DNA of 64,000 nucleotides from Solirubrobacter pauli (GTDB lineage Bacteria; Actinomycetota; Thermoleophilia; Solirubrobacterales; Solirubrobacteraceae). A program made the translations under genes and the position numbers. The notes beneath the pieces are model-generated. The model searched no databases. It saw only the letters and a list, made by a program, of their open reading frames with translations, and was not told where the DNA came from. Shown here in pieces: positions 33,509-35,665 of the stretch (the first letter of the stretch is position 1; every line of letters starts with the position of its first letter). The stretch is from the NCBI RefSeq assembly GCF_003633755.1, contig NZ_RBIL01000001.1, forward strand, positions 3,581,426 through 3,645,425. Reading direction: 5' to 3'.

Positions 33509-33540
33509 GAACGGCCCGCGTTGCGGGCCGTTCGTCTTTA
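33509..33540. terminator. Terminator after rpsG
   Basis: A perfect 11-bp stem (GAACGGCCCGC, 33509-33519, with GCGGGCCGTTC, 33523-33533), GTT loop and GTCTTTA tail. The convergent minus-strand gene ends at 33538, so it may serve both directions. Confidence 0.85.
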
Positions 33541-34281
33541 ACCGGCCAGGTCGTCCACTGCGCTGTAGGACGGGAGCTGCGCGTGGTGCAGGTCGTCGCC
33601 GGCCCGGATCGCGGCCGCCGCGGCGACGGCGCTCTGCAGAGCTGCCCGGAACAGTAGCGAGCCGGTGCTGATCCGCGCGGCGCCGCGGGCGGCGAGGTCG
33701 GCGACCGTGTGGCCCGGCTGGAAGAGCACGTTCAGCGGTGCCGCGACCGCGTCGGTGAACGGCGCGACGTCCTCGAGCGGGAGGCCCGGGACGAACACGC
33801 CGTCGGCGCCCGCGCGGACGTACGCGGTGCACCGGGCGATCGCGTCGTCGAGGTCGCCGGTGCGCAGCCAGTGCGTGTCCGTGCGCGCGTTGACGAACAC
33901 GTGCGGGTTGCGCCGCTTGACCGCGGCGATCACGGCCGCGTGGTGGTCGGGGTCGCCGTGCTGGTCCTCGAGGTTGACGCCGGCGATCCCGTCGAGCTGC
34001 GCGACCCGCTCGGCCACGGCGTCGGGATGCTCGCCGAACCCGTGCTCGAGGTCGACGGTCAGGTGGCAGTCGAGCCGGCTCAGCCTGAGGGCGAGCGCGC
34101 GCGTCTCCTCCCACGCGGCCCCGACCCCGTCCCGCTTGCCGGCGGCCGCGGCAACCCCGAGGCTGGTCGTCCCGATCGCCTTGAACCCGGCGGCGACGAG
34201 CGCCGCGCCGGACACCGCGTCCCACGCGTTCGGCAGCACGAGCGGGTCGCCGGGCACGTGCAGCTCCGCGAACCCCGTCAC
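33538..34281 (-). CDS. Isocitrate lyase / PEP mutase-family protein
   Basis: A 247-residue TIM-barrel protein of the isocitrate lyase/phosphoenolpyruvate mutase superfamily. Recognisable segments are LPNAWDAVSGAALVAAGFKAI, DLEHGFGEHPD (metal-binding acidic residues), GVNLEDQHGDP and VNARTDTHW; the canonical KKCGH loop of isocitrate lyase is absent. Members of this subgroup are mostly uncharacterised C-C lyases or mutases acting on 2-oxo acids. The GTG start overlaps the stop of the upstream P450-like gene by four bases (GTGA), so the two proteins are translationally coupled and probably act together. The frame stays open far upstream but only as a shadow. Confidence 0.8.
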   Translation of the reverse strand: MTGFAELHVPGDPLVLPNAWDAVSGAALVAAGFKAIGTTSLGVAAAAGKRDGVGAAWEETRALALRLSRLDCHLTVDLEHGFGEHPDAVAERVAQLDGIAGVNLEDQHGDPDHHAAVIAAVKRRNPHVFVNARTDTHWLRTGDLDDAIARCTAYVRAGADGVFVPGLPLEDVAPFTDAVAAPLNVLFQPGHTVADLAARGAARISTGSLLFRAALQSAVAAAAAIRAGDDLHHAQLPSYSAVDDLAG

Positions 34282-34940
34282 CGGAGCGCCTCCGCGAGCG
34301 CCCGCGCGTGCGCCTCGCCCGGGCAGCGGCGCGGCCCGTCCCCGAACGGCCGCCCATCGAGGCCGACCGCGACGATCTCGCCGTCCGCGGTGACACGCTT
34401 CGTCGTCTTCACGGGCAGATTGTCGCCGCGCACGAGGCCGGCCGTCGCCTCGCACGCCTGCACCAGCAACGCGACGTGCTGCGCGAGCGCCTCGGGCTCG
34501 TCGGCGGGCAGGAGCGCGAGCAGGGCGGCGAGCGCCGCGTCGGCCTCGGGATGCTCCGTCCCGGGCTGATACGCGGCGGCGACGACCCGCGTGAACCCGA
34601 CGGCCGCGACCGGGTCGGCGACGCCGGTCGCGTCGGCGAGCACGGCGACGGGGAGATACGCGCGGGGCACGCCGGCGAAGCCGCGAGCGGCCGGCGAGGC
34701 ACCGGGCCACGTGGCGGCGGCGGGCGGCGTGGAGGCAGCGGTCTCGCGCGTGCCTGCGGCCGCGTTCTTCGCGGCGGCGGCGAGCGTCGCCGGGTCGAGC
34801 GTGGCGAGGCGGGCCTCGGTGAGCGCGCGGCGGCGGGCGTGGGTCTCGCCGTTGGCGAAGCGCGAGACGGTCGCGCGCAGCCAGGCCATCGTGGCGAACG
34901 GGCCGGACGGGCCGGGGTCCGGGACGGGGAGGTCGAGCAT
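34278..34940 (-). CDS. Short cytochrome P450-like protein
   Basis: A 220-residue protein, about half the length of a cytochrome P450, with three P450-like landmarks in order: RFANGETHARRR (27-38), like the N-terminal NG-x-H-x-x-RR segment; LLVQACEATAGLV (158-170), like the I-helix around the oxygen-binding threonine; and FGDGPRRCPG (199-208), an exact match to the haem-thiolate loop FxxGxRxCxG with Cys206 as the would-be ligand. The K-helix ExxR and meander that normally lie between the last two are missing. No frameshift is visible and the frame is intact, so it looks like a real reduced protein. It may bind haem or have lost it. It is coupled to the PEP-mutase-like gene and divergent from arsR. 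Confidence 0.65.
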   Translation of the reverse strand: MLDLPVPDPGPSGPFATMAWLRATVSRFANGETHARRRALTEARLATLDPATLAAAAKNAAAGTRETAASTPPAAATWPGASPAARGFAGVPRAYLPVAVLADATGVADPVAAVGFTRVVAAAYQPGTEHPEADAALAALLALLPADEPEALAQHVALLVQACEATAGLVRGDNLPVKTTKRVTADGEIVAVGLDGRPFGDGPRRCPGEAHARALAEALR

Positions 34941-35005
34941 CGTCCGACGGTAGGGCCGGGACGGTTCGGTCGCCGCCGAAACGTCGCGGGCGTACGCTGG
35001 GCGGC
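34941..35005. promoter_or_regulatory. Divergent leaderless promoters
   Basis: This 65-base gap carries a -10 box for each side. On the minus strand TACCGT (34952-34947) ends exactly six bases before the ATG of the P450-like gene, and on the plus strand TACGCT (34993-34998) ends seven bases before the arsR ATG. Neither gene has a Shine-Dalgarno. The ArsR protein may control both; no clear palindromic operator is seen. Confidence 0.5.
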
Positions 35006-35665
35006 ATGTCCGAGCTCGCCGACGTCGCCGCGCTGCTCGCCGACCGCACGCGGGCGCGGATCCTCGAGGAGCTGCTCGGCGGGCCGCCGCTCCCCGCCGG
35101 GGCGTTGGCGGTGCGGGTGGGTGTGGCGCCGTCGACGGTCAGCGGCCACCTCGCGAAGCTCGAGGCGGCCGGGCTGATCGTCGTGCGCCAACGTGGGCGC
35201 CGGCGTGAGGCGGAGCTCGCGCGCCCCGAGGTCGCCGAGGCGCTCGAGGCGTTGTCGCGGCTCGCGCCTGGTGTCGCGCGGCCGATCGGCCTCCGCGCCG
35301 TGAACGGGCACGCCGCGTTGCGCGAGGCCCGCTCGTGCTACGACCATCTCGCCGGCCGCACGGGCGTCGCGCTCGCGGACGACCTCGTCGCGCGCGGCGC
35401 GCTCGTCCTCCGGGACGGCGCGTTCACGGTGGGCGACGGGGCCCACTTCTCGCGCGCGTTCGCGATCGACCTCGACGCGCTCGGCGGCCGCCGCGTGCTG
35501 GTGCGCGCGTGTCCCGACTGGACCGAACGCCGCCCGCACGTGGCGGGGGCGCTGGGCGCGGCGCTGCTCGACGTCGCGCTGGCGCGGGACTGGGTGCGGC
35601 GGCGGGATGACGGGCGGGCGCTGAACGTCACGGCCGCGGGGCGCTGTGCGCTCTTGTGCGGCTGA
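35006..35665 (+). CDS. ArsR-family transcriptional regulator
   Basis: A 219-residue regulator. Residues about 5-75 form an ArsR-type winged helix: ALLADRTRARILEELL, then the recognition helix VAPSTVSGHLAKLEAAGLI and a beta wing VRQRGRRREAEL. The metal-binding ELCVC motif of classical ArsR/SmtB is absent, so it probably does not sense metal. The C-terminal 130 residues (RARSCYDHLAGRTGVALADDL type; DWTERRPHVAGALGAALLD) form a domain seen in longer actinobacterial ArsR-like proteins, of unknown ligand. It is divergent from the P450-like/PEP-mutase-like pair, the likely target, and 242 bases upstream of the MMPL gene. Confidence 0.8.
   Translation: MSELADVAALLADRTRARILEELLGGPPLPAGALAVRVGVAPSTVSGHLAKLEAAGLIVVRQRGRRREAELARPEVAEALEALSRLAPGVARPIGLRAVNGHAALREARSCYDHLAGRTGVALADDLVARGALVLRDGAFTVGDGAHFSRAFAIDLDALGGRRVLVRACPDWTERRPHVAGALGAALLDVALARDWVRRRDDGRALNVTAAGRCALLCG

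Follow-up and report, generated by a model that had tools for sequence, protein, structure and literature searches.

A half-size cytochrome P450-like protein encoded beside a PEP-mutase-like enzyme and a divergent ArsR-type regulator in Solirubrobacter pauli

The stretch analysed here (the window) comprises 64,000 nucleotides of Solirubrobacter pauli (contig NZ_RBIL01000001.1, positions 3,581,426 to 3,645,425) and contains a gene for a half-size cytochrome P450-like protein of 220 residues, here called P450L, an intact open reading frame at 34278-34940 on the minus strand with orthologues in Solirubrobacter and a family of 39 members. Its end overlaps the start of a gene of the phosphoenolpyruvate (PEP) mutase/isocitrate lyase superfamily (PEPM, 247 residues, 33538-34281, minus strand) in a GTGA stop/start at 34278-34281, a putative translational coupling. 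On the other side, and 65 nt away, a gene for an ArsR-type regulator with an extra C-terminal domain (219 residues, 35006-35665, plus strand) is transcribed divergently, and the promoter region between the two carries a candidate operator palindrome, TTCGGTCGCCGCCGAA (34965-34980, unstranded), of the form TTCG-N8-CGAA.

Along P450L itself (all minus strand) are found the C-helix segment His34...Arg38, an HxxxR (34827-34841) within the NGETHARRR of residues 30-38, a low-complexity linker of variable length (residues 56-94, 34659-34775), the I-helix core LLVQACEATAGLV (residues 158-170, 34431-34469), a strand with Thr180-x-Arg182 that follows the place of a lost K-helix (34395-34403) and the haem-thiolate loop FGDGPRRCPG with Cys206 (residues 199-208, 34317-34346). 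The open reading frame check bore out the first-pass annotation as to the intact 220-residue frame, the three landmark motifs, the GTGA overlap and the start of the divergently transcribed ArsR gene at 35006, and also as to the mere 28 residues between LLVQACEATAGLV and the haem loop; P450L has neither ExxR nor meander.

Recognition of P450L as a P450 relative depends on the family rather than on the single protein. Against PF00067 the protein by itself gives an expectation value (E) of 0.3 over the haem loop only, with 10.2 bits against a gathering cut-off of 22.8, Pfam and NCBIfam scans with the one sequence were insignificant or empty, and the PDB search returned a low-complexity match only. 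The PF00067 profile search proposed in the first-pass annotation thus fails for the lone sequence, whereas the family profile finds P450s of known structure significantly and collinearly. At E<=0.01 this profile (A3, 14 rows) matched 185 different sequences of the PDB, of which the best 60 are all P450s, with a best E of 1.9e-10 and an alignment that stays in order between chain residue 122 in the C-helix and residue 385 in the haem loop, and profile-profile comparison by hhalign with six full-length P450s gave E 3.7e-14. A coincidence confined to the haem loop was considered and rejected, because a profile stripped of the loop still has only P450s among its best 60 PDB matches (best E 1.5e-5), and its hhalign alignment still begins in the C-helix and reaches the TxR strand (E 1.8e-7). 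Descent of P450L from a cytochrome P450 is clear from these comparisons. The likeness is to the bacterial CYP105/CYP107-like group in its collinear homology, C-helix HxxxR, Arg after the K-helix position and FGxGxxxCPG loop; the differences from the P450s of PF00067 lie in a size of about 220 rather than about 400 residues, a shortened F/G-H region, the missing ExxR and meander, a score below the Pfam cut-off, and an I-helix with Ala in place of the catalytic Thr and an invariant Gln.

The 39 family members are 190-362 residues long as called, some starts being uncertain, and come from several actinobacterial orders. Orthologues occur in all seven Solirubrobacter genomes searched (that of S. 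pauli and six others of the genus), and more distant members in other actinobacterial families and orders; the named homologue is in S. taibaiensis. Across the phylum the distribution is sparse, at 3 of 396 sampled genomes with S. pauli included, and within one genus about half of the genomes were matched (31 of 60), though a few of these are weak matches to fragments or to other P450s; a plasmid tblastn search gave no match. Pairwise comparison of P450L with three orthologues gave synonymous distances (dS) of 0.50-0.62 and nonsynonymous distances (dN) of 0.14-0.18, and over residues 95-220 dN/dS is about 0.2-0.3, the low-complexity linker being under far looser constraint and evolving almost neutrally. 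Comparable dN/dS values were obtained for ArsR and PEPM next to it, and P450L is, as judged by these rates, under purifying selection. In the tree a 357-residue P450 (F_L024) falls within the family, and so strict monophyly of the reduced forms with respect to full-length P450s is not supported.

P450s hold the haem propionates by the HxxxR of the C-helix and by an Arg that follows the K-helix, with the loop Cys as thiolate ligand. By alignment to full-length P450s, His34 and Arg38 are that HxxxR and Arg182 is that Arg. Conserved in all 39 members are Cys206, Pro207, Gly200, Gly202, Thr180, Arg182, Gln161, Arg27, Phe28 and Ala212, and in 38 of them His34, Arg37, Arg38, Ala165, Thr166 and Gly106, while Phe199 is present in 36 and is Tyr in the rest. 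The conservation survey proposed at first pass for Cys206 therefore found the residue in every homologue. P450L lacks the A/B region at the N-terminus, some of the F-G-H lid, the J helix, the K-helix and so the ExxR, K' and the meander. This selective retention of haem-contact residues makes it likely, at the level of sequence, that P450L is a minimal haem protein.

ExxR, meander and I-helix Thr are textbook P450 features, the first two normally stabilising the core, and among the relatives of P450L the loss of K-helix and meander appears graded. A K-helix ExxR survives in only two of the 39 (EVLR in L021, ETLR in L054); other members of that genus mostly keep the K-helix Arg with the Glu changed mainly to Ala, or to Ser, Thr or Arg; five loci (L007, L018, L026, L028, L029) have a short segment at the K-helix position with no ExxR; and Solirubrobacter, L022 and L076 have no K-helix. 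It is therefore directly testable which P450 elements became dispensable earlier and which later. P450s lacking ExxR are already known, as in CYP157 of Streptomyces, in which, on the account given in PMC3599690 citing Rupasinghe 2006, an EVLW/EQSLW motif is retained with the Glu kept and the Arg lost. The absence of a consensus ExxR and the presence of conserved neighbour genes are shared with CYP157, but P450L relatives mostly keep the Arg and lose the Glu, and P450L has neither EVLW/EQSLW motif nor K-helix and so is not CYP157-like. Predicted CYPs with no detectable I- or K-helix motif are also listed in PMC3599690. As a separate observation, a P450-like protein of about 270 residues from its likely start (L027:1390-2580, genome G934) shares the I-helix signature QAxxAT and carries a different set of deletions, with F/G/H region and meander gone and K-helix Arg kept; neither an ArsR nor a PEPM partner was found within its 3.3-kb locus. 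Its deletion pattern suggests that parts away from the haem may have been shed more than once.

The I-helix Thr of P450s delivers protons to bound O2. In profile and hhalign alignments alike, made with and without the haem loop, LLVQACEATAGLV aligns to LLYIAGHETTVNLI, with its AGHETT, without gaps, and the S. pauli protein has QACEAT in place of an AGxD/ET with catalytic Thr; the Thr position (Ala165) is Ala in 38 of the 39 members, and the acid next to it is unconserved (Ala 20, Glu 5, Leu 5, Asp 4). The Ala of AGxxT has become Gln161, invariant in the family and equivalent to Ala264 of P450 BM3, an equivalence taken from the ungapped alignments since hmmalign places a one-residue I-helix insertion in L030-L032. 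BM3 Ala264 touches the sixth-ligand water, and substitutions there alter iron ligation and conformation: a Glu, Lys or His at this position is able to ligate the iron, and a Gln drives the water out but does not coordinate (PMC11900375). Given the Thr to Ala change, the unconserved acid and the invariant Gln, a classical monooxygenase cycle looks unlikely for P450L. P450s without the catalytic Thr exist, such as CYP74 allene oxide synthase and the CYP152 peroxygenases, and their haem-thiolate chemistry is of a kind that needs neither an O2-activating Thr nor a reductase. Those enzymes are full-size, in contrast to P450L, and, no detailed comparison having been made, their active-site signatures are not obvious in its I-helix core.

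The gene order around P450L is conserved with it. Counting the window, an ArsR relative lies near P450L at 35 of 39 loci, a PEP-mutase-like gene at 37 and both at 34, and at locus L076 P450L and PEPM are called as a single open reading frame of 604 residues (L076:733-2547, genome G998). TTCG-N8-CGAA is present in 24 of 25 divergent P450L/ArsR promoters at the same place in the intergenic region, and arises in shuffled versions of the S. pauli intergenic region at a rate of 0.00025. In the window the copy at 34965 is the sole match, and the extended form GTTTCGG-N6-CCGAAAC, searched with at most one mismatch, has no other site in the genome. With a non-divergent ArsR (L022; locus L037) a site stands upstream of both P450L and ArsR, and it is still upstream of P450L where no ArsR lies in the stretch examined (L007, L026, L029) or where ArsR is elsewhere or was not found (L023). 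Together with the conserved family, the invariant Cys and the dN/dS of about 0.2-0.3 in the conserved part, this conservation of operon and operator supports the view of the first-pass annotation that this is a working gene and its suggestion of a P450 descendant with a new function. The three-gene module, the operator, the change of Thr to Ala with an invariant Gln and the graded K-helix loss in relatives are additions to that account.

The regulator scores above threshold with ArsR-type models (HTH_20 E 2.8e-12; HTH_metalloreg 59.3 bits against a cut-off of 55; HTH_5 32.5 against 22) and has CmtR (2jsc) as nearest solved structure. It shares with ArsR/SmtB regulators such as CmtR and SrnR a winged helix-turn-helix and a palindrome in a divergent promoter, and differs from them in having an additional C-terminal domain, which contains the motifs SCYDHLAG and DWTERR. 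This subfamily, with SCYDHLAG...DWTERR domain and common operator-like site, is widespread: at L098-L118, TTCGG-N6-CCGAA or TTCG-N8-CGAA precedes many ArsR relatives that have no P450L, and those with the palindrome adjoin EamA/MFS efflux genes or an OsmC gene. Such neighbours point to ArsR being a regulator of small-molecule stress. PEPM matches PF13714 at E 2e-64 (217.9 bits, above cut-off), and the equivalog models for PEP mutase and the lyases score far under theirs. It resembles the superfamily, with 2ze3 (DFA0005) and 4mg4 as nearest solved structures, in its PF13714 domain and NLED motif, and differs from 2ze3 in a shortened segment after NLED and from isocitrate/methylisocitrate lyases in the absence from its sequence of their KKCGH Cys loop.

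Taking as established from sequence the descent, the purifying selection, the module and its operator-like palindrome, the retained haem contacts and the loss of the O2-activating Thr, ExxR and meander, we favour a reading, with a probability of roughly 0.55, in which P450L is a P450 descendant cut down to its haem-holding core and working with PEPM in an ArsR-repressed detoxification or stress operon. In this, ArsR bound to TTCG-N8-CGAA would repress in both directions until a small toxic molecule bound to ArsR released the repression, and translational coupling would make P450L and PEPM in step, the two acting as a complex or on consecutive steps; both parts are fairly likely, control by this ArsR being strongly implied. 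P450L would then bind haem b through Cys206; His34, Arg38 and Arg182 would hold the propionates, and above the iron Gln161 would serve either as the distal ligand or as a polar residue. Such binding seems probable on the pattern of conserved residues, and the probability given above for the reading extends up to this point. What reaction might follow is a guess, and one rather more apt to be wrong than right: a reductase-free haem-thiolate chemistry, either an oxidation driven by peroxide or an isomerisation/dehydration, with a substrate that PEPM handles as well. A monooxygenase cycle is left out of this step because the Thr/acid proton-delivery pair is lost and no redox partner was recognised beside P450L. 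The wider proposal, of a minimised haem-thiolate scaffold of about 190-220 residues that folds and works with no ExxR, meander or full lid, carries an evolved distal Gln and, controlled by an ArsR switch of its own, makes a single functional unit with an enzyme of the PEP-mutase/isocitrate-lyase type, is put forward tentatively, at somewhat less than even odds.

Several observations weigh against this reading. The loop of the S. pauli protein fits FxxGxxxCxG, but the Gly of CxG (Gly208) is Ala in 24 of the 39 members, and with just 41 residues between the I-helix and the Cys a P450 pocket may be unable to form. In the genus where the module is common two copies (L070, L071) are apparently frameshifted or fragmented, and so P450L is dispensable for some hosts. 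The L076 fusion is limited to one genome and is only suggestive, because the genes normally overlap by four bases and a one-base sequencing error could create it. An AF2 model built from only two sequences has a mean confidence (pLDDT) of 48, too poor to count either way, and Foldseek with this model found no match at E<=0.001; P450s in its top row and several others carry no weight.

P450L might instead be no catalyst at all and serve as a haem-binding sensor or as a redox or gas-binding subunit (for carbon monoxide, nitric oxide, peroxide or haem level) that regulates PEPM, with Gln161 as a displaceable sixth ligand. The invariant Gln at the BM3 Ala264 position combined with the lost catalytic Thr would suit this role, as would a shortened lid region that leaves little substrate pocket, and the translational coupling and single fusion with PEPM; we nevertheless hold it to be unlikely. 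To a similar degree improbable is a P450L that binds no haem and is a structural or substrate-binding partner of PEPM, its motif residues being kept for folding. The haem loop is normally secured by ExxR, K-helix and meander, and their loss, like the change of CxG to CxA, would be in keeping with that. But the selective retention of the Cys, of the basic residues on the propionate side and of the Gly frame in 38-39 of the 39 members, set beside the disappearance of K-helix and meander, is hard to explain without haem. Half size, a low-complexity linker and disrupted copies in some genomes of a related genus might be taken for a decaying P450 gene or an annotation artefact of GC-rich sequence, but conservation in 39 family loci of several orders, purifying selection and the conserved operon and operator make this scarcely credible, and decay is rejected for the family as a whole. 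The first-pass annotation had looked to full-length P450 orthologues as the sign of a decayed copy, and longer P450-like relatives do exist, some near full length; P450L is nonetheless no one-off decayed copy, because proteins of the reduced form make up a family of their own that is conserved in several orders.

In the open-access literature no paper combining "cytochrome P450", "PEP mutase" and "ArsR" was found, nothing relevant on smallest, minimal or truncated P450s, and no account either of half-size P450s as a family or of an ArsR-P450L-PEPM module, subscription papers and outside genome annotations lying beyond that search. A family with the expected haem-contact residues yet no ExxR, meander or I-helix Thr would reveal a minimal haem-thiolate fold, and the scaffold proposed above would, if real, represent a novel type of haem-thiolate enzyme or sensor and be the smallest haem protein of P450 origin. 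As a compact scaffold P450L would then lend itself to haem chemistry that is driven by peroxide or is non-natural, and the module with its palindrome is a handle for finding inducer and substrate.

Some further observations concern individual copies and neighbours. The most divergent Solirubrobacter copy (L043, genome G002; P450L homologue at L007:1486-2223) has its middle replaced by an imperfect GTAADAQG-like repeat and keeps the Cys, the His/Arg contacts and the operator-like site, with no ArsR within 12.7 kb. The S. pauli genome itself encodes two other shortened P450s, one of 382 residues (L012:1135-2283, C1 at about 1.342 Mb) with the meander collapsed to YLANRRGRSIPFGGGTRRCIG, and one of 337 residues (L014:754-1767, C2 at about 0.797 Mb) with an aberrant I-helix, VVAAGQEPP. 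Quinone-oxidoreductase-like dehydrogenase genes lie beside three modules (L035, L043, L131), and in two actinobacterial families the module has a gene for a small alarmone synthetase with a RelA/SpoT domain as its neighbour (L035:4722-5483, L129:4476-5330), both associations being in part plain synteny.
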